Positions 19,342-31,301 of a stretch of 51,916 nt of DNA are shown here, piece after piece. The stretch spans positions 1-51,916 of the forward strand of contig CALXYM010000016.1 in the NCBI GenBank assembly GCA_944392965.1. Direction: 5' to 3'. A program made the translations under genes and the position numbers. This DNA is from an uncultured Spirochaetaceae bacterium. GTDB lineage: Bacteria; Spirochaetota; Spirochaetia; Sphaerochaetales; Sphaerochaetaceae. Under the pieces are notes generated by a model. The model made no database searches, was not told the origin of the DNA, and saw only the letters and a list, made by a program, of their open reading frames with translations. The stretch's first letter is position 1; every line of letters begins with the position of its first letter.

Positions 19342-20090
19342 GAAGGCGGTATGATCTTGCCCTTTCCATCGTAAAAAAAGTATCAGCATTCCTTGTTGAG
19401 AGGAGGAAATGCGGTTTTGTAATCAGTGAAAAAGGCGAGAATGATTATGTGACCGAGGCTGATAAGGCCTCAGAGAATCTTATCAGGGATGCGATAAGAA
19501 CATCTTTCCCTTCCGATGAGATACTCGGGGAGGAGTACGGCATAAGCGGTTCTTCATCATCCCTCTGGATAGTCGATCCCATTGATGGAACTGTGAATTA
19601 CATGAACGGATTTCCATTCTATACGATATCCATAGCCTATCAGGAGAAGGGAGAGACTCTTTTTGGCTTCGTCAGTGTTCCTGAACAGGGAGAGATATTC
19701 TCCGCGATAAAAGGTGAGGGGGCATATCTGAACGGGGAGAAGCTCCATGGAAACACACTGCCTACGAGAAAGAGCCTTGCCATCCTGGTTCCTCCACATA
19801 GGATGCATGAGGCTCTGGATTCATATCTTTCTTCCATGCGGAGACTGTATGAGATCTATTCCGATGTCCGATCCATCGGTTCAGCAGCTTTGAGTCTCTG
19901 TTATCTTGCCTCCGGACGTGTTTCCTGTTATTACGAGAGGTTCCTGCATATATATGACGTTGCTGCCGGTCTTTTGATAGCATCCGAGGCTGGAGCTGAT
20001 GTTGAATATAAGGAATACGATGATTATGTTGATATCCTTGCTACGGTCAAGGGATTACTTGCCTCTACGAAGGAGGCCATAGATGGTTAG
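19338..20090 (+). CDS. Inositol monophosphatase family protein
   Basis: 250 residues; Mg-dependent Li-sensitive-type phosphatase acting on inositol-phosphate, fructose-1,6-bisphosphate or PAP-like substrates. Metal-site motifs are intact: [33 protein letters not shown], and [15 protein letters not shown]. It overlaps the acidic-protein gene by four bases and the HAD-RidA gene by eight, so translation is coupled. Substrate unassigned. Confidence 0.88.
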
Positions 20091-21105
20091 GGCTCTTCTT
20101 TTTGATCTTGATGGAACACTCCTTGACACATCGAAAGGGATATTCAGGACAGCCGATAAGACTGCTCTTGCACTTGGGCTCACACCCTGTCGTGATTATG
20201 AGAAATACGCGCAGTTCGTAGGTCCTCCACTTCATGTGGGATTCAATAAAGTATATGGGCTCTCAGGAGAGGATGCTTATAATGCATCAAGAATATATAA
20301 AAGTTTTTATCCTGAGACGGGGATCGGGGTATACGAATATTACGATGGCCTTCTGGATGTTGTGAAAGAACTTAAAAGAAGGGGATATCTCATTGCTGTA
20401 GCTACTTTAAAAAATGAGAATGCAGCAAAAAAGATGATTGCATCTTCCCGATTTTCCTCCCTTATAGATGTCGTGCATGGCTCGGACGAGGCAGAGGTGA
20501 TGACGAAGAAGGATGTGGTTCTCCTTTCCCTCAGATCTCTTGGTGTCGATAAAAATGATGCGATTCTTATCGGAGACAGTGAAAGTGATGAGACGGGAGC
20601 AAGGGAAGCGGGGATAGCATTCCTTGCTGTCTCATGGGGATTCGGTTTTCCAAAAGGATGTGGAAATTCAGATCATATAGATTCTCCAGAGGAGCTTCTG
20701 GAAATTTTTGGAGGAATAAACATGATTGAAAAAATTGAGACAAAGAGCGCTCCTGCAGCGATTGGTCCCTACAGTCAGGCCGTAAAGGCAAATGGTATGC
20801 TTTTCTGTTCAGGTCAGATTCCAATCGATCCTGCGACAGGAGATATCGTGAAAGGTGATGTGAAGGCACAGGCGGAGCAGGTTTTTAAGAACATCAAAGC
20901 CCTTCTTGATGAGGCTGGATGTGATGAGGGCAGGATCGTAAAGGCAACCGTGTTCTTGAAGAACATGGATGATTTTGCTGCCGTGAACGAGGTATATGCA
21001 TCATTTTTTGAAAAATGCGCCATACTTCCTGCAAGAAGTGCCGTTGCCGTACAGAAGCTGCCGAAGGATGTCATGGTGGAGATTGAAGTGATTGCACTTC
21101 TATAA
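20083..21105 (+). CDS. HAD phosphatase-RidA fusion protein
   Basis: 340 residues in one open frame. Residues 1-213 are a complete HAD hydrolase of the phosphoglycolate-phosphatase type ([13 protein letters not shown] nucleophile motif; [23 protein letters not shown]). Residues 214-340 are a complete RidA enamine/imine deaminase ([50 protein letters not shown]). There is no linker: the HAD part ends in [10 protein letters not shown] and RidA begins at Met214. The join still encodes GGAGG seven bases before that Met codon (20710-20714), so RidA could also be made alone. The fusion looks like loss of the HAD stop codon; a sequencing error removing a stop is the alternative. Confidence 0.85.
20710..20724 (+). 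promoter_or_regulatory. Internal ribosome-binding site and ATG for RidA
   Basis: GGAGG, seven-base spacer AATAAAC, ATG, all inside the HAD-RidA frame. The spacing is optimal and better than that of many real starts in this window. It predicts a second, about 127-residue RidA product (20722-21105). Confidence 0.6.
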
Positions 21106-22796: not shown

Positions 22797-25226
22797 ATGA
22801 GCGAAAACAGTAAAAACGAAGAGATGGAGATTGATCTTACCGATCTTGTAAAGAGCATCTTCTCCCGAATATGGATCACGATACTTTCATTCGTGCTTGC
22901 AGTGGGAATTGCAGTGCTTTATCTGTTCATTGCGGTTCCTGTATATGAGACGACCTCTTCCATGATGGTTGAACCCCTCAGTGATACGAGTATCTCATCT
23001 CTTTTTGATGCAGGATTCTCCTCTGGAAGGGATATCTCAACCGAATTGGAGATCCTTAATAGCCGTACGACTTATGATAATGCGCTTTCCAAGCTCGATC
23101 TCACGAAGTATACGACGGTTGATGGAATAAGATATTCAGATTTTGAGAGGCCTCTGGATTATGAGAGTCTGCAGGAGATCGTTACTGTCGAGGCTGTGGC
23201 AGATACTTCTTTTTTGAGGATCACCGTACAGAATCAGAATCCCGAGTTTGCCCGTGATTTCTGCAATGCTCTCGCGGAGAGTTATTCTGAGATCCTGACA
23301 GGCATCACCCGTGACAGTGCATCCAGCCAGCTTGAGTTCATTACGAATGAGATTCCTTCTGTCGAGAATGAGCTTAGGAATGCCACCTTGGCGTTAAGCG
23401 AGTTCCAGAGAGAGAACAGCCTTTTACAGCTGAGTGAAGAGAATCAGATACTTCTTCATCAGATGAGCTATCTGACGATGGTAAGAGAGCCTTTACGACA
23501 TGAGATTGAGGAGGCAGAGAGGTATCTTTCCTCTTTCGAAGAGGCATATCCTGTTTTACAGGAAAGGCGTTCTGCCTTCGGTTCTGATGAGAGGGTTATC
23601 ACGGGTACTGAGGATATCATAACATGGTATAGCGAATCTGTGCTTTATGACATCCTTTCAAGTACTTCCACGACTCAGATCTCAGTGCTGAGTGCGACCC
23701 AGCAGTCCAGATATTATGCACTCACACAGATGATGGAAGCTACTCAGACCGATCTGGAGAACTATCTGGCAGCCCTGCTTGCCGATGTACTTTCTCCTGT
23801 GGATGCACTGACATATGTCCAGTATTATCTGCAGCTTGCCTTGGGAGAGCGTCAGATAATAGTCATAGATGGAATGCTTGACAATATCGATGTTGAACTT
23901 GAAAAGGTTCCTGAGCTGGAGAGACAGCAGATGGAATTGCAGAGCAATGTCGAGGTCTATCAGCAGCTGGTGCTCTATTTAAGACAGGCTCAGAGTGAGA
24001 CATCCCTTTTAGAGGCGAGCATAACGAATAACGTTACCCGGATAGATGAAGCTATCCTCCCAGTAGAGCCGGTAAGTCCATCAACGGCGAGGACTCTTTT
24101 AATTGGAGGTTTCCTCGGCATATTCATCGGTGTCGCGATCTCCGTCGTACTCGGTCTTGTCGATAAGAGGATCATGACAAGAGAGGATCTTGAAAAGGCT
24201 ATTGACGACGATATTCCTGTCCTTGGATGGGTTCCTCTTCTAAAACCTGGCAAGAGTGATGATAAGAGGAGGGGAATATCACTTAATCTCAATCCAATGT
24301 CATTCATCTCTGAACGCTATAAGCAGATTGCTTCTGCGATGATATATGGACGCAAATTGGGAAGCCATTTTATAACGGTCTGTTCCCCGGGAAAGAACGA
24401 TGGTAAATCCACAACAATAGCGAACATCGCATATGCCCTTGCCTTAAATGGAAAGAGGATCCTTATCGTCGATATGGATCTGAGAATGCCTGCTGTTGAG
24501 AAGGTTTTCAAGGTGAAACACGCGGAGAAGGGTATAGCCGATGTCTTGAGTGGAGATGCTCGTCCTGAGGATGCGATAAGAACACCTTTCGAGGAACTTC
24601 CGAATCTCAACATCATCGGAGTGGGTACTCCCGTCGTAGTTCCTTCGATTGTCATTCAGACGTTCAGCATAGAGGAGTTCATAACATCGGTTAAATCCTA
24701 TTATGATTACATCTTCTTTGATGCTCCTCCTCTCTCATATGCATCAGAGCTTCTTACGATAGCCAGGGTTGCACCTGAGGTCCTCGTCATAACGAGGGCA
24801 GGTATCTCCAATTCTGATGAGGTGAAGATGCTCACCCGTGATCTCAAGGATGCTGGTGCGAACATCATCGGTTTCTGTCTCAATGGACTCTCTCTTGCTT
24901 CGACAAGCCTTGCCGGTAAGAATTCCTATGGTTACGGTTATGGCCTTTCAAAGAACACGAAGAAGGAGAGGGATGAGATAAGAAACACGTATGTGAAAAA
25001 GAAGAATCAGTATTCCAGGATCTATCGCAGACAGCTTAAGGAGAGGGAGCAGAGGCGAAGCAGTGATGACTGGCCTCTTGCACCTCTGACATTCCCTGAC
25101 GGATTCAAGACCTCCTCCACAGCTTCTTCAAAGAAGAATTTCAATACTAAGAGCGTTCTTAAGACTTTTGAGGATTATCTAAGTGCTGTGGAAAAGGATG
25201 AGAATGCAAAAGGAAAAAAGGAGTAG
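22797..25226 (+). CDS. Wzc-like chain-length determinant / bacterial tyrosine kinase
   Basis: 809 residues. N-terminal Wzz domain with a membrane helix (ITILSFVLAVGIAVLYLFI), a long coiled-coil periplasmic part, a second helix near residue 440, then a cytoplasmic BY-kinase domain: Walker A SPGKNDGKSTT (about 530-540), Walker A' IVDMDLRMP (about 557-565), Walker B IFFDAPP. The tail holds clustered Tyr (YGYGYG, then spaced Tyr to YRR) as autophosphorylation sites. It controls polymer length and export together with the Wza-like protein. Start at ATG after GAGGGGTAGC; a TTG four codons earlier is unlikely. No glycosyltransferase or polymerase genes follow, so the rest of the locus is elsewhere. 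Confidence 0.9.
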   Translation: MSENSKNEEMEIDLTDLVKSIFSRIWITILSFVLAVGIAVLYLFIAVPVYETTSSMMVEPLSDTSISSLFDAGFSSGRDISTELEILNSRTTYDNALSKLDLTKYTTVDGIRYSDFERPLDYESLQEIVTVEAVADTSFLRITVQNQNPEFARDFCNALAESYSEILTGITRDSASSQLEFITNEIPSVENELRNATLALSEFQRENSLLQLSEENQILLHQMSYLTMVREPLRHEIEEAERYLSSFEEAYPVLQERRSAFGSDERVITGTEDIITWYSESVLYDILSSTSTTQISVLSATQQSRYYALTQMMEATQTDLENYLAALLADVLSPVDALTYVQYYLQLALGERQIIVIDGMLDNIDVELEKVPELERQQMELQSNVEVYQQLVLYLRQAQSETSLLEASITNNVTRIDEAILPVEPVSPSTARTLLIGGFLGIFIGVAISVVLGLVDKRIMTREDLEKAIDDDIPVLGWVPLLKPGKSDDKRRGISLNLNPMSFISERYKQIASAMIYGRKLGSHFITVCSPGKNDGKSTTIANIAYALALNGKRILIVDMDLRMPAVEKVFKVKHAEKGIADVLSGDARPEDAIRTPFEELPNLNIIGVGTPVVVPSIVIQTFSIEEFITSVKSYYDYIFFDAPPLSYASELLTIARVAPEVLVITRAGISNSDEVKMLTRDLKDAGANIIGFCLNGLSLASTSLAGKNSYGYGYGLSKNTKKERDEIRNTYVKKKNQYSRIYRRQLKEREQRRSSDDWPLAPLTFPDGFKTSSTASSKKNFNTKSVLKTFEDYLSAVEKDENAKGKKE

Positions 25227-25262
25227 ACGAGAGTTTTCTTTTGTATTATCCTCTCATAAGAT

Positions 25263-25343
25263 ATGGGAAACACGGTGTGCTTAGAGACTTTCGTAATAAG
25301 GATTATGTCTTACCTAGGCACTTCTATTTCCTCTTTTGATTGA
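25263..25343 (+). CDS. Putative pyr leader peptide (26 codons)
   Basis: ATG-initiated short frame (MGNTVCLETFVIRIMSYLGT, then SISSFD) whose TGA lies seven bases before the terminator hairpin in front of pyrBI, with the pyrimidine-rich CTTCTATTTCCTCTTTTG just ahead of the stop. A ribosome at the stop would cover the 5' arm of the hairpin. The ribosome site is weak. The arrangement parallels the E. coli pyrBI leader; that this frame is translated is inference. Confidence 0.35.
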   Translation: MGNTVCLETFVIRIMSYLGTSISSFD

Positions 25344-25349
25344 AGTTAG

Positions 25350-25381
25350 GCGGCTCTGTTTTCTGAGCCGCATTTTTTTTT
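25350..25381 (+). terminator. Terminator/attenuator before pyrBI
   Basis: GCGGCTC, eight-base loop, GAGCCGC, A, then nine T, running directly into GGAGG of pyrBI. No promoter can fit after it, so pyrBI expression requires readthrough; this makes it an attenuator candidate. Confidence 0.8.
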
Positions 25382-25390
25382 GGAGGCATG

Positions 25391-26977
25391 ATGGCAAACG
25401 TTTTTAAAGGTAGAAGTTTATGCGTGATCGAGGATTTCTCCATAGATGAGAGAAGGTATTTCTTTAGAAAGACGCAGGAGCTTAAGAAGGCGATTCTTGA
25501 AAATGATGAGATTGTCATGGATTCTTTCCGGATCAATGACCCTGATTTCGGCATCTATGAGGTGTTCCTTGAAGACAGTACTAGGACGAAGGAAAGTTTC
25601 AGAAACGCGGCAAAGTTCCACCATGCGAAGGTTTCCGAGCTTTTGTGCGACTCGTCCAGCATAAACAAGGGAGAGAGTTATGCGGATACCTTCAACATGC
25701 TCTCAGGATACTCAAACAGGATATTCATAGTCAGAAGTAAGGTCGAAGGCCTTACAAAGTGGCTCAGCGAGGAATGCAGTGAATATGCTGAGCGCAATCA
25801 TCTGCCGTATGTTCCTGCCTTCATAAACGCAGGAGATGGCAAACATGAGCATCCGACGCAGGAACTCCTCGACGAGTTCTCATTCTTAGAGCGTCTCAAC
25901 ATGGATTTCTCAGAGATTCATCTTGCCTTGGTTGGCGATCTTTATCATGGGCGGACCGTGCACTCGAAGGCGGACGGATTGAAGATATTTGACAAGGTGA
26001 CCGTAGACCTGATCGCCCCTTCTGAGCTCATGATGCCCGACAGTTATATCGAGATAATGAAGGAAAACGGCTTTACAGTGAACATATTCTCATCGATCGA
26101 GGAATACCTTGAAAAGGGAGAGATTGCGAAACTCTGGTATTTTACCCGCCCCCAGCTTGAGAGGATGGGAGAGCGTATTCTGAAAAAGGAGGCGGAGCTG
26201 AGAGAGGCAATCACATTCAGAAAAGAGTTCATGCCACGCTTGAAAGAGGGTACGAAGTTCTATCACCCGCTTCCTCGGCATAAGGAACATCCGACTATTC
26301 CTACATTCCTTGATAAGACAGAACTGAACGGATGGGAGGAGCAGGCGATAAACGGAATGTACTGTCGTATGATACTCCTATCTCTGATCGCAGGAAAAAT
26401 AGGTGAGGATTTTACAGGAAAGAGCGCTATTGAGAAGGATTATAAGAGTGAGGAGTACATCGTTGAAGTACAGCCTGAGAATAAAGTGAAGGAGAAGAAC
26501 ATCTCCGAGGGAGTACGCCCTATAAGGAATGGAATCGTGATCGATCATATCTGCAAGGGGGACAGCCCTGAGGAGATAAGAAAACACATTCGTCTCATCT
26601 CCTCTGTGATCGGACTTGATGATGCTCGTGGAGGGGAGTGGATCAGCCAGGGCAGTGACGGTAAGTACAAGGGCATCATATTCCGCCCTGATATCGTGGA
26701 TCTCTCAAGAAAGGATCTTAAGAGGCTTGCGGCGGTTGCTCCACATTGCACATTGAACATCATAAAGGATGGCAAGGTCGATAAGAAGTTCAGGACGCAC
26801 ATGCCGCCACGCATCTATAATTTTGAGGATATGTCCTGTAAGAACGAGGCATGTATTTCAAATCCTGTGAACAAGGAGGGGGTGGCATCAAAGTTCTACC
26901 GTACGAAGGACGATGGATACCGTTGTGCATACTGTGGAAAGGTACACTCCTTCAAGGAGATTTGGAACAAAAGATGA
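25391..26977 (+). CDS. pyrBI: Aspartate carbamoyltransferase, fused catalytic and regulatory chains
   Basis: About 528 residues; first committed pyrimidine step. PyrB part (1 to about 340): EDSTRTKESF carbamoyl-phosphate loop, HPTQELLDEF, GDLYHGRTVHS, HPLPRHKEHP. PyrI part (about 375-528): allosteric domain VRPIRNGIVIDHICKG and a C-terminal zinc site with Cys pairs CKNEAC and CAYC. Such B-I fusions are known, for example in Thermotoga. Two adjacent ATGs (25388, 25391) follow GGAGG; the second has the better spacing (four bases). First gene of the pyr operon. Confidence 0.95.
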   Translation: MANVFKGRSLCVIEDFSIDERRYFFRKTQELKKAILENDEIVMDSFRINDPDFGIYEVFLEDSTRTKESFRNAAKFHHAKVSELLCDSSSINKGESYADTFNMLSGYSNRIFIVRSKVEGLTKWLSEECSEYAERNHLPYVPAFINAGDGKHEHPTQELLDEFSFLERLNMDFSEIHLALVGDLYHGRTVHSKADGLKIFDKVTVDLIAPSELMMPDSYIEIMKENGFTVNIFSSIEEYLEKGEIAKLWYFTRPQLERMGERILKKEAELREAITFRKEFMPRLKEGTKFYHPLPRHKEHPTIPTFLDKTELNGWEEQAINGMYCRMILLSLIAGKIGEDFTGKSAIEKDYKSEEYIVEVQPENKVKEKNISEGVRPIRNGIVIDHICKGDSPEEIRKHIRLISSVIGLDDARGGEWISQGSDGKYKGIIFRPDIVDLSRKDLKRLAAVAPHCTLNIIKDGKVDKKFRTHMPPRIYNFEDMSCKNEACISNPVNKEGVASKFYRTKDDGYRCAYCGKVHSFKEIWNKR

Positions 26978-27012: not shown

Positions 27013-27705
27013 ATGAAAACACTCAACGAAATACAGAATTATTACGGAAGTCAGCTTGCAAAAGCGGCTCTTGATCTCGGTGCCATAAGACTTAGCGTCA
27101 ACGATCCCTTCAGATGGGCAAGCGGATACAGGATGCCTATTTACAATGATAACAGGCAGTTCCTTTCTTCCAGTAAGTACAGGGCTCTCATCTGCGATGC
27201 ATTTTCAGATATGGTGGAATCCCTTTCCTTGAAGGTTGACAATATCGCGGGAACGGCTACTGCCGGTATTCCTCATGCGACAAGCCTAGCAGACCGCCTT
27301 AACAAGAGTCTTAGCTATGTCAGAAGTTCAAACAAGGATCATGGCCTTGGACATCAGATCGAAGGCCTTGGAAGAGATGGAAGCTACTCAGGTGTGAACG
27401 TCCTCCTCATCGAGGATCTTATTAGTACCGGTTCCTCTTCCATAAAGGCGGTAGAGGCTATAAGAGGAGCAGATGGAATCTGTGACACATGTCTTGGAAT
27501 CTTCACCTATGGACTGCAGGCGAGCTACGATGCCTTTGCAGCACTAAAGCCATCATGCTGCTATCATACGATTCTCTCTTATGATCTGATGGTCAAGATT
27601 GCGGAGGAGACGGGGTATATCAATCAGAAGGAAGCTGAGGAGCTCAGGGAATGGAGAAAGGATCCATTCGGTTGGGGTGAGAAGAGAGGATTTAGTAAGG
27701 AGTGA
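27013..27705 (+). CDS. pyrE: Orotate phosphoribosyltransferase
   Basis: 230 residues; joins orotate to PRPP giving OMP. PRPP loop VLLIEDLISTGSSS, the GTATAGIPHATSLADRL segment, and SYVRSSNKDHGLGHQIEG with catalytic Lys and His. Ribosome site GGTAGGTAAGA. The stop is directly followed by pyrF. Confidence 0.93.
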   Translation: MKTLNEIQNYYGSQLAKAALDLGAIRLSVNDPFRWASGYRMPIYNDNRQFLSSSKYRALICDAFSDMVESLSLKVDNIAGTATAGIPHATSLADRLNKSLSYVRSSNKDHGLGHQIEGLGRDGSYSGVNVLLIEDLISTGSSSIKAVEAIRGADGICDTCLGIFTYGLQASYDAFAALKPSCCYHTILSYDLMVKIAEETGYINQKEAEELREWRKDPFGWGEKRGFSKE

Positions 27706-27707
27706 TC

Positions 27708-28589
27708 ATGAGTTATAACGATAAACTTATTAAAAGTGCGGAAAAGACGGGTAATATAGTATGTATGGGACTGGATCCTGTAGTTGAGGTCCTTCCTTTT
27801 CCTGATCTTCCAGTGAGGGAACGCATTACTAAATATTTCGATGTTCTTTTCTCAAAGATGGTTGAGGAGAAACTGTCTCCTGCAGCTTTCAAACCCAATC
27901 TCGGATTCTATGCCGCTCTTGATATGCCTAGAAAAGGAGAGTACGAGGGATCCAAGGCCCTTGCCAGTGTTCTTGACCTTCTTGATAAGTACTTTCCTTC
28001 TGTTCCTGTGATCCTTGATAGCAAGAGGGGAGATATTGCAAAAAGTAGTGGAAACTATGCGAAAGAGGCTTTTGACTGTTGGAACAGCGATGCCGTGACA
28101 GTCTCTCCTTACATGGGAAGCGACAGCATCCTTCCATTCGCATTTGAGGATAAGGGAATGTACATCCTTAATCGTACGAGCAATCCGGGAGGTGCGGAGC
28201 TGCAGAACAGGCTCGTTATCGATCCTGTTGAAGAGAGGGAGGTGTACCCTCTTTATATCGCGGTAAGCCATATGATAGTCGCATGGGCCGATAAGCACGA
28301 GGGAATCGGGGCTGTGGTAGGTGCGACAAATATGAAGGAGTTCGCCGATATTGCGAAATACTTTGCTGATAAGAATATTCCAATGCTCATCCCGGGTGTT
28401 GGCAGTCAGGGTGGAAGTGCAAGCGATGTCATTCACGTGATGGATGAAGTCGGCTATGATAAGAGACTGAGCAGGATCAACTCATCAAGTGGGTTGACTC
28501 ATCCTTGGAAGAAGGGAGAAGCTCCTGAGACCTGGCTTGAGATGTGCATAAGCAGCATAAAGACTCTCATCAAGGAGGCAACCCTCTGA
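27708..28589 (+). CDS. pyrF: Orotidine 5'-phosphate decarboxylase (long type)
   Basis: 293 residues; decarboxylates OMP to UMP. Motifs GLDPVVEVLP, FKPNLGFYAAL, and LDSKRGDIAKS with the catalytic Lys/Asp network; length and KPN.GFY pattern fit the type-2 (mycobacterial-like) subgroup. Start ATG after AAGGAGTGATC, two bases beyond the pyrE stop. The stop overlaps the pyrDK start (TGATG). Confidence 0.93.
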   Translation: MSYNDKLIKSAEKTGNIVCMGLDPVVEVLPFPDLPVRERITKYFDVLFSKMVEEKLSPAAFKPNLGFYAALDMPRKGEYEGSKALASVLDLLDKYFPSVPVILDSKRGDIAKSSGNYAKEAFDCWNSDAVTVSPYMGSDSILPFAFEDKGMYILNRTSNPGGAELQNRLVIDPVEEREVYPLYIAVSHMIVAWADKHEGIGAVVGATNMKEFADIAKYFADKNIPMLIPGVGSQGGSASDVIHVMDEVGYDKRLSRINSSSGLTHPWKKGEAPETWLEMCISSIKTLIKEATL

Positions 28590-30262
28590 TGAACAAGGCA
28601 TACGAGCTCCTGCATCTCAATCATAAGAAAGGAAATGTTCTTCTTTCAACCGTATCCGGTGTCGCGACGACCAAGAGTGAGCTTATAAGGCTTTTCGACA
28701 GTAAGATTCCCTCTATGGATATCATAACCACCAAGAGCTTTCAGGTCACTCCGAACGAGGGAAATAAGATGCCCGTGATAACAAGTCCCCGTCTTGGGGA
28801 TTTCGGAAATTCCGTGGGACTTAGAAATCCGGGAATGGAGAAGGCATATGCGGAGCTCGAGATGCTCAGGAAAGAGGGATTAAGAGCAATTCTCAACGTC
28901 TCCGTCTCCGCTAACAGCGTTGAGGATTTCGTCACCCTTGTGAAGAAGTTCGATTCCGTTGCCGATATGATAGAACTCAATCTCTCCTGTCCCCATGCCG
29001 CGAAAGGCTATGGAGCATCAATCGGAAGTGATCCTGAGCTTGTAAAGGAGTATATTAGGGGAATAAATAATGCTTATCCGGAGAGAAAGAGTCTTCTTAT
29101 CGCAAAACTTACTCCAAATGTCGATGATATCGCATCGATAGCAAGGATTGCTATCGAAGAGGGAGCCGACGGAATAGCCGCTATAAACACCGTAGGGCCG
29201 AAGGAATACTATCTTGATGGACAACCTATACTTTTTAATAAGCTTGGTGGCAAGGGCGGAGCAAGTGGGGAATGGGTGAAAGAACGAGCCATAGAAGCCA
29301 TCAGTGAGATAAGGAATGCGATAGGCGATGATCCGATAATCCTTGGCATGGGTGGTGTCAGTACCGCAGAGGATGCTCGGAGAATGATTGATGCCGGCGC
29401 AGACAGTGTTGGAATAGGTTCAGCAATAGCACGTCTCGAGATGGCTGATTATGAAGCATATTTCTCCTCGATAAAGAAAGGAGAGGATGTTTCAAAGTAT
29501 CTTTCTTCCGATCATCGTCCGCTTGAGTACGTACGTCATACTGTAATAGACAAGACGATGTACTCTGAAGATACCGTTATTCTCACACTGGATGGACAGA
29601 TGGACTGTAAGGCGGGTGAATTCTGTTTCCTGTTCATCCATGGTGCAGGTGAGCGTCCATTCTCCGTTGCGAAGAACGATCCACTTATCTTCATAATAAA
29701 GATACGTGGACCTTTCACGGAGGCTGCCGCACATCTCGAGAAGGGAGATGTTATCTATACAAGGGGACTTTCTGGTAAGCCAATAAAGAACAGGCATACG
29801 AAAAAGGCTCTCCTTATAGGAGGCGGAACGGGAACTGTTGTTCTGAATCTTCTTGCCAAGAAGCTCTCAGAAGAGGGGACTGTCATGGATATAAGGGTAG
29901 GAGTTCCTTCCCTTAAAGAAGGGCAGAAGGGACTAATGCAGGACGATCTTGAGAAATACGGGAAGTATACGGTCATTGCAGATGATGGAAAGCCAGGACG
30001 TGTTCTTGATAGCCTCAAGAGTGAGGATATTGAGGGCGATGTCGCCGCATATATCGTGGGACCGGCCATCATGATGAAGAAGGCGGCGGAGATTCTCTCT
30101 TCTTTCTCTCTTGATCCTGATCTCATCATGATAAGCCTTGAGAAGAATACGATGTGTGGTGTAGGGCTTTGCGGAGAGTGCGTCTGTGGTGAAAAGCTCA
30201 CCTGCAAGGAGGGAACTTTCCTTCCATACAGCTATATCATAGAGAACAATCTGGAGATTTAA
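28589..30262 (+). CDS. pyrDK: Dihydroorotate dehydrogenase catalytic subunit fused to PyrK electron-transfer subunit
   Basis: 557 residues. Part 1 (about 1-305) is a class 1B DHODH: PVITSPRLGDFGNS, ELNLSCPHAAKGYG, IAKLTPNVDD, GMGGVSTAEDA. Part 2 (about 310-557) is PyrK: flavin region CFLFIHGAGERPFSV, LIGGGTGTVVLN nucleotide fold, and the [2Fe-2S] Cys cluster CGVGLCGECVCG plus a later Cys. PyrD and PyrK are usually separate genes; here they form one chain, giving an NAD-linked enzyme. Start ATG ten bases after AAGGAGG and overlapping the pyrF stop. Confidence 0.93.
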   Translation: MNKAYELLHLNHKKGNVLLSTVSGVATTKSELIRLFDSKIPSMDIITTKSFQVTPNEGNKMPVITSPRLGDFGNSVGLRNPGMEKAYAELEMLRKEGLRAILNVSVSANSVEDFVTLVKKFDSVADMIELNLSCPHAAKGYGASIGSDPELVKEYIRGINNAYPERKSLLIAKLTPNVDDIASIARIAIEEGADGIAAINTVGPKEYYLDGQPILFNKLGGKGGASGEWVKERAIEAISEIRNAIGDDPIILGMGGVSTAEDARRMIDAGADSVGIGSAIARLEMADYEAYFSSIKKGEDVSKYLSSDHRPLEYVRHTVIDKTMYSEDTVILTLDGQMDCKAGEFCFLFIHGAGERPFSVAKNDPLIFIIKIRGPFTEAAAHLEKGDVIYTRGLSGKPIKNRHTKKALLIGGGTGTVVLNLLAKKLSEEGTVMDIRVGVPSLKEGQKGLMQDDLEKYGKYTVIADDGKPGRVLDSLKSEDIEGDVAAYIVGPAIMMKKAAEILSSFSLDPDLIMISLEKNTMCGVGLCGECVCGEKLTCKEGTFLPYSYIIENNLEI

Positions 30263-30263
30263 C

Positions 30264-31301
30264 ATGATCGATCCCCATGTACATTTAAGAGACTGGAATC
30301 AGGTGGAGAAGGAGAGCGTAAAGCATGGTCTCCGTATAGCAAGGATGGCTGGAATAGATAGGGTATTCGATATGCCGAATACTAACCCTCCATTAACGGA
30401 GAGGTCTGTCATTTTAGAACGCCTTGCCCTTGGTTCTGCCGCGGCAAAACCGCTTAAGATGGGTTATAATGTATATGCGGGGCTTACAAGCGATCCTGAA
30501 CAGGTAAGAGAGATGGTACGTGTCCACTCTGAACTCTTTCCTCTTGTCGTGGGACTGAAAATGTTCCTCTCCCATAGTACGGGAAACATGGGAATAACCG
30601 ATCCTGATCTTCAGCGGCTCGTCATAAGAGTCCTTACTGAAGAGGGTTATAAGGGAGTTCTTGCCGTACATGCGGAGAAGGAGGAGCTGAATAACAGCGC
30701 TTTGGAAAATCCTGATGATTTCTCATCCCATTCCTTAGCCCGTCCCTCTGAAAGTGAGATCGAGTCCGTAAAGGACATAATAAATCTTGTTAAAGAAGAG
30801 AATTTCAAAGGGCACCTGCATATCTGTCATATATCAACAGAGGAGGCAGTGAGGGAGGTCCTCAGAGCAAAAGAGGAGGGGCTCAGCATAAGTATGGGAG
30901 CCTCTCCACATCATGCACTTCTCAATTCTTCTGACGCAAAGGATAGAAACAGAGGATTGAAGATGAATCCTCCTTTAAGAAGTGAGGAAGACAGGGCTTT
31001 CATCTATGAGGCTTTGAAAAACGGCATTATAGATAACGTTGAAAGTGATCATGCTCCCCATACTGCAGAGGATAAGAACAAGGGCGCTTCCGGCATACCG
31101 TGCTTTTCAGGAATGCTTCTTTTATATCATCGTCTGAAGGAAGATGGCGTAGGAGAGGAAAGACTTAGAGATCTTTTCGGGAAAAATGTCATAAAAATAT
31201 ACGGCCTCAGGGATGAGGCTGTCCGACTTCCAGAGGAGAGCGAGGCTCTCTTCGAGAAGATCAGCAAAAGCTATCCTATAAGGCCGTTTGAGTGGTCTTA
31301 G
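30264..31301 (+). CDS. pyrC: Dihydroorotase
   Basis: 345 residues; cyclises carbamoyl-aspartate. Metal motif DPHVHLRD at the very N terminus, the carboxylated-Lys region VGLKMFLSHSTGN, HICHIST, and ESDHAPHT with the catalytic Asp. It is shorter than the roughly 425-residue class I enzymes because the usual N-terminal composite-domain strands are missing. Last gene of the pyr operon; overlaps the convergent OMP gene by four bases. Carbamoyl-phosphate synthase genes are not in the window. Confidence 0.92.
   Translation: MIDPHVHLRDWNQVEKESVKHGLRIARMAGIDRVFDMPNTNPPLTERSVILERLALGSAAAKPLKMGYNVYAGLTSDPEQVREMVRVHSELFPLVVGLKMFLSHSTGNMGITDPDLQRLVIRVLTEEGYKGVLAVHAEKEELNNSALENPDDFSSHSLARPSESEIESVKDIINLVKEENFKGHLHICHISTEEAVREVLRAKEEGLSISMGASPHHALLNSSDAKDRNRGLKMNPPLRSEEDRAFIYEALKNGIIDNVESDHAPHTAEDKNKGASGIPCFSGMLLLYHRLKEDGVGEERLRDLFGKNVIKIYGLRDEAVRLPEESEALFEKISKSYPIRPFEWS

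Follow-up and report, generated by a model that had tools for sequence, protein, structure and literature searches.

Introduction

In the enterobacteria, the UTP-sensitive and translation-coupled mechanism that attenuates pyrBI has been elucidated. The E. coli and Salmonella pyrBI attenuator, with its leader frame pyrL, was described by Roland, Liu and Turnbough (1988) and by Donahue and Turnbough (1994), as cited in PMC5021804 and PMC9291695. In E. coli, a terminator lying 5 bp behind a stop codon falls from approximately 90% to less than 10% efficiency in a translation-dependent manner (PMC4824070), and pyrBI is furthermore subject to reiterative transcription (PMC6245113).

The spirochaete leaders described here resemble E. 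coli pyrL in their succession of a promoter, a Shine-Dalgarno-led short frame, a pyrimidine-rich tract, an intrinsic terminator that a ribosome could cover, and pyrB-pyrI. In contrast to E. coli, the spirochaete pyrBI is one fused gene heading a full pyr operon, in many of the leaders the stop codon lies within or immediately ahead of the terminator hairpin and not after it, and the leaders have a conserved leader-spanning hairpin, with a predicted near-leaderless start in the subclade of the DNA analysed here. Likenesses also exist to PyrR-dependent attenuation (Bacillus type, RF00515), which has a terminator in the pyr operon leader, and to the amino-acid leaders trpL, hisL and pheL, which combine a leader peptide, a possible pause hairpin and an intrinsic terminator. 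No report of pyrBI attenuation of this kind in spirochaetes was found in the open-access literature.

Results and discussion

Organisation of the pyrBI leader

The window, i.e. the whole stretch of 51,916 nucleotides that was analysed, belongs to a gut spirochaete of the Sphaerochaetaceae with a 2.43-Mb genome (38 contigs, 95% complete), the closest named relatives of which are Candidatus Ornithospirochaeta MAGs. Positions 25224-25391 are flanked by a Wzz/GNVR-type polysaccharide gene on the 5' side, ending at 25226, and by the fused pyrBI on the 3' side, and hold a promoter followed successively by the 26-codon leader frame, the pyrimidine-rich tract, a strong terminator and the ribosome site of pyrBI. 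The features of the locus are the following:

25224-25252, + strand: predicted promoter, -35 TAGACG (25224-25229), 17-nt spacer, -10 TATCCT (25247-25252); called from recurrence in relatives
25263-25343, + strand: leader peptide frame with a predicted near-leaderless start, 26 codons plus TGA; called from the shared ATG and family-wide statistics
25265-25332, + strand: predicted leader-spanning RNA hairpin, GGGAAA (25265-25270) with UUUCCU (25327-25332) and, further inside, GUGCUUAG with CUAGGCAC; called from folding and covariation
25322-25341, + strand: pyrimidine-rich, U-dominated tract TTCTATTTCCTCTTTTGATT, predicted UTP-sensitive pause region; called from family T content
25350-25381, + strand: intrinsic terminator (attenuator), hairpin 25350-25371 and T9 25373-25381; called from folding
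25382-25386, + strand: pyrBI Shine-Dalgarno GGAGG; seen in the sequence and kept in relatives
25391-26977, + strand: pyrBI fusion, aspartate carbamoyltransferase catalytic plus regulatory; NF009916 at 821 bits (cut-off 800) and Pfam
27013-31301, + strand: remaining pyr operon, pyrE, pyrF, a pyrD-pyrK-like fusion and pyrC; profile matches

A sequence-only reading of this stretch had reported the 26-codon frame upstream of pyrBI, a GC hairpin followed by nine T, a pyrimidine-rich run just upstream and a T-tract touching the pyrBI ribosome site. All of these parts lie where it placed them, with the T9 ending at 25381 and the GGAGG beginning at 25382, and the only coordinate that had to be moved is the pyrBI start, from 25388 to ATG 25391 (MANVFKG), which is the most likely start since close relatives possess that ATG alone. 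It had overlooked the promoter, the hairpin that spans the leader and the near-leaderless position of the start codon. The pyrBI fusion that it had pointed out is confirmed by the NCBIfam class of the product (bifunctional PyrBI), and the non-enterobacterial setting by the assignment of the host to the Sphaerochaetaceae.

Together, pyrBI-pyrE-pyrF-pyrDK-pyrC represent a near-complete UMP pathway. The pyrD and pyrK-like electron-transfer domains are apparently fused in a single 572-aa frame (window 28544-30262). Further upstream (window 20083-21105), a HAD-type phosphatase and a RidA-like domain, judged by eye, seemingly share one frame; ridA adjoins pyrBI in E. coli also. The pyrG (CTP synthase) leader of the same genome (L244, C29:1500-2300) displays a hairpin, AAGGCGTTCACCTTCTTCAAGGTGGGGCCTT, then a T-rich stretch and then a ribosome site, and this short leader might be a further nucleotide-linked attenuator, of a different type.

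Promoter and near-leaderless start

The pattern TAGACA-17-TATNCT is found at the equivalent place in many relatives. The pattern has its sole match in the window here, and since at least one match was also present in 27 of 100 shuffles, the weight of the promoter call rests on its conservation. The -35 TAGACG opens with the TAG stop codon of the polysaccharide gene, an overlap that occurs in many relatives as well. From the position of the promoter, the pyr transcript would start near 25259; no T-run is present at this putative start, and E. coli-style reiterative transcription is therefore not expected.

The leader ATG of the window (25263; TGA at 25341-25343) lies approximately 3-5 nt from the predicted 5' end, given the usual spacing from a -10 ending at 25252, and has no Shine-Dalgarno, so that this copy would have to be translated by near-leaderless initiation. 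The same ATG is common to L004, L005 and L008, in which the frame is open to the hairpin despite many substitutions, and these three leaders together with L006 share the -10-to-ATG spacing of the window, all with open frames. GTG 25275 and ATG 25305 were rejected as alternative starts, being not conserved or badly spaced. In a second clade (L057, L067, L071, L073, L081 and L135), the 5' end is likewise very short and the frames are short, and both this clade and the subclade of the window have lost the Shine-Dalgarno and retained frame and terminator. In our reading, leaders of the window's subclade would initiate near-leaderless, which appears to be new.

Conservation of the leader frame

A total of 169 pyrBI upstream regions (137 distinct) were gathered from Sphaerochaetaceae and a few Bacillota-labelled contigs, and dropping those with at least 30% common 8-mers left a non-redundant set of 83 leaders. 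Of the 83, 80 have an ATG downstream of the predicted -10 from which a frame runs uninterrupted to the hairpin, compared to 32.5 ± 4.2 in dinucleotide shuffles, and in 58 this frame is preceded by a Shine-Dalgarno of at least 5/6, compared to 1.9 ± 1.4 expected (maximum 6 in 300 shuffles). The leaders are related and thus not independent, and the shuffle comparison serves as a guide and does not give an exact probability; the excess is nevertheless very large. When the first Shine-Dalgarno-led ATG was taken, i.e. without conditioning on the outcome, 59 of 60 leaders had no stop in its frame before the hairpin, and stops interrupted the other two frames over the same span in 71 and 61 of 79 leaders.

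In alignable leader pairs, substitutions were distributed evenly over the codon positions (67/61/46). The peptide is therefore not conserved, only the openness and position of the frame being kept, and it would be translation of the leader that matters and not its product. A conserved or arrest peptide was dismissed on the same grounds.

The footprint of a ribosome reaches approximately 12 nt beyond the A-site codon. Relative to the start of the hairpin, the leader stops end anywhere from -9 to +65 nt, and a ribosome at any of them would therefore cover the hairpin; at the stop of the window leader, it would cover about 25350-25354, as the sequence-only reading had proposed for the 5' arm. As in a pyrL-type attenuator, the frame is thus predicted to be able to carry a ribosome onto the terminator hairpin. 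When the E. coli K-12 locus was read in the same way as a control, the annotated pyrL was recovered, with its start at -89 and its stop at +46 from the hairpin, both inside the spirochaete range.

Terminator, U-rich tract and leader-spanning hairpin

The terminator hairpin of the window, GCGGCTC/GAGCCGC, begins six bases past the leader stop and has a folding energy of -13.6 kcal/mol (shuffle z -5.3). The arrangement of an intrinsic terminator between promoter and pyrB, typical of the pyrL type, is conserved in relatives. So is the U-rich tract between leader start and terminator: in the region from -25 to -5 of the hairpin, the T content was 0.47 in the 83 leaders compared to 0.33 ahead of 29 further terminators found in these loci (p 2.4e-5), and the pyrimidine content 0.64 compared to 0.51 ahead of these controls (p 6.8e-5). 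The T content of the window itself is equalled by 10% of the 29 control terminators, and its U-richness is accordingly only moderately unusual. Near the terminator, T is enriched at each of the three codon positions (0.38/0.42/0.50), as would be expected if selection acted on the transcript and not on one amino acid.

Folding of 71 leaders gave a mean z of -1.62 relative to dinucleotide shuffles (t = -10.8) and of -1.63 with the halves shuffled apart, with corresponding values of -2.35 and -2.9 for the leader hairpin of the window. The predicted pairing is concentrated in a 5' arm from -84 to -56 and a 3' arm from -48 to -22, and declines at the U-tract. When the 5' half of a leader was combined with the 3' half of a different one, 3.4 kcal/mol were lost on average (z -10.7), and the arms hence covary across the leaders, though the effect was modest in the window alone (rank 31%). 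Compensated arms can also be recognised by eye, as AAGGA/TCCTT in L023 and L030, AAGGG/CCCTT in L024 and L022, and AAGGT/ACCTT in L033. The hairpin is almost without conserved primary sequence, and when 13 related leaders were aligned with MAFFT, RNAalifold returned the terminator and not the leader hairpin, the arms of which probably vary in register.

In the predicted folds, the leader Shine-Dalgarno region falls within the 5' arm, with a mean pairing probability of 0.73. For the E. coli leader, too, pairing of the ribosome site with the U-rich tract is predicted. A conserved, covarying hairpin that extends over the leader frame as far as the U-rich tract, and is predicted to hide the ribosome site of that frame, appears to be a new feature. 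It would close as the polymerase enters the U-tract, and may, less certainly, act as a pause hairpin, gate leader initiation, or do both. The E. coli pyrL pause studied in vitro was not NusA- or hairpin-dependent (PMC9291695), which makes the role as a pause hairpin uncertain.

Alternative explanations

The presence of a leader peptide and a terminator would also be in line with a translated attenuator that senses the supply of charged tRNA, as in the trp, his and phe leaders, where stalling codons choose the RNA structure, and Phe codons do occur within the last 12 codons in 64 of 79 leaders. However, the run of codons for one amino acid that marks such attenuators was not found, no residue is common to all of the leaders, and Phe, Ser, Leu and Ile occur at similar frequencies, as is to be expected from U-rich codons; amino-acid sensing was dropped since there is no shared control codon. 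Nor was a mutually exclusive antiterminator found: the leader does not pair in excess with the terminator 5' arm (mean duplex z +0.5), which led to the dismissal of an antiterminator switch and leaves a leader that is, as in the pyrL type, antiterminator-free and indifferent to its peptide. While amino-acid leaders stop more than 20 nt ahead of their terminators (PMC4824070), the spirochaete leaders, devoid of control codons and competing structures, stop at or inside theirs, at most 9 nt before the hairpin or beyond. Since the operon, moreover, makes pyrimidines, amino-acid sensing is extremely unlikely. The conserved, covarying leader hairpin could instead suggest that an RNA-binding regulator, PyrR-like or unknown, or a nucleotide-binding riboswitch acts on the terminator, with the frame being incidental. 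This is difficult to reconcile with a hairpin almost devoid of conserved primary sequence and a leader unpaired with the terminator 5' arm, and would leave the conservation of the frame unexplained. The PyrR RNA element RF00515 was absent from the genome (positive controls matched), and the leader was without any Rfam match. Six places with a phosphoribosyltransferase domain were found in the 95% complete genome, none of them PyrR: three stand-alone, PyrR-sized phosphoribosyltransferases and PyrE did not reach the PyrR cut-off, and the frames at the other two exceed 400 aa and are too long. With neither RNA element nor protein found, and with a translated frame in place of an antiterminator, PyrR control was dropped, and a regulator or riboswitch in general is very unlikely.

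A further possibility is that the hairpin is a mere terminator of the upstream polysaccharide gene, which lies on the same strand and ends 124 bases before it, and that pyrBI has its own promoter or depends on readthrough. The terminator abuts the pyrBI ribosome site, and there is therefore no space for a later promoter; the conserved promoter lies 5' of the hairpin, and among relatives the sequence upstream of this promoter varies while the leader stays. This explanation, excluded by geometry, is scarcely credible. Finally, the predicted burial of the Shine-Dalgarno and a hairpin ending at the U-tract are what would be expected if leader initiation were the main sensor, so that general translation or polymerase speed, and not UTP, set the readthrough. 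By itself, this explains neither the U-rich tract nor the link to pyr genes, and the two clades devoid of a Shine-Dalgarno still keep frame and terminator, making it a highly improbable account.

Proposed mechanism

By its anatomy, and by every trait of the type that can be judged from sequence, the locus is a pyrL-type attenuator: promoter, open frame, stop position, U-tract, terminator, leader hairpin and the missing antiterminator can all be read from the leaders. We thus consider it very probable that a translation-coupled, UTP-sensitive transcription attenuator of the pyrL kind controls pyrBI-pyrE-pyrF-pyrDK-pyrC. The likeness to pyrBI attenuation put forward in the sequence-only reading, for which an alignment of leaders from related species had been proposed, is supported by the frame, U-rich tract and terminator kept across the family; pausing, UTP as the signal and readthrough through ribosome coverage would follow from the E. 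coli precedent.

According to this attenuator model, the polymerase would initiate near 25259 and a ribosome would load onto the leader frame, with the leader hairpin able to form behind the polymerase just when the U-rich tract is reached. When UTP is scarce, the polymerase would dwell in the U-rich tract, allowing the ribosome to catch up and melt the leader hairpin; at the stop (25341-25343), the ribosome would then cover the terminator 5' arm, leading to readthrough into pyrBI. When UTP is plentiful, the polymerase would outrun the ribosome and the terminator would form.

Distribution and implications

Four genomes from a second spirochaete family (L201-L204) likewise carry a leader of this kind ahead of pyrBI, and L207 and L210 probably do so too, but no such leader was seen before the approximately 50% identical PyrBI fusions of other families. 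Five Bacillota-labelled MAG contigs (L053-L056 and L059; Clostridia, Ruminococcaceae or similar) carry the leader together with a spirochaete-type pyrBI fusion (69-70% identical), and in L055, L056 and L059 the leader frame passes through the terminator, as in E. coli. These occurrences reflect either operon transfer or mis-binning.

More tentatively, and with less confidence than would make it probable, we suggest that the leader frame forms a covarying hairpin, masking its own ribosome site and closing when the polymerase enters the U-tract, so that polymerase speed gates the loading of the first ribosome, that one subclade uses a leaderless start instead of a Shine-Dalgarno, and that the whole cassette has been transferred between phyla along with the pyr operon.

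The approximately 80 leaders support the same attenuation logic in a phylum distant from the enterobacteria, which would make it either very old or evolved twice. The attenuator reading predicts tight coupling of ribosome and polymerase in spirochaetes, where such coupling has, to our knowledge, hardly been tested so far. The natural variants, with stops before, inside or after the terminator and with leaderless or Shine-Dalgarno starts, may serve to dissect how coupling reads nucleotide supply.
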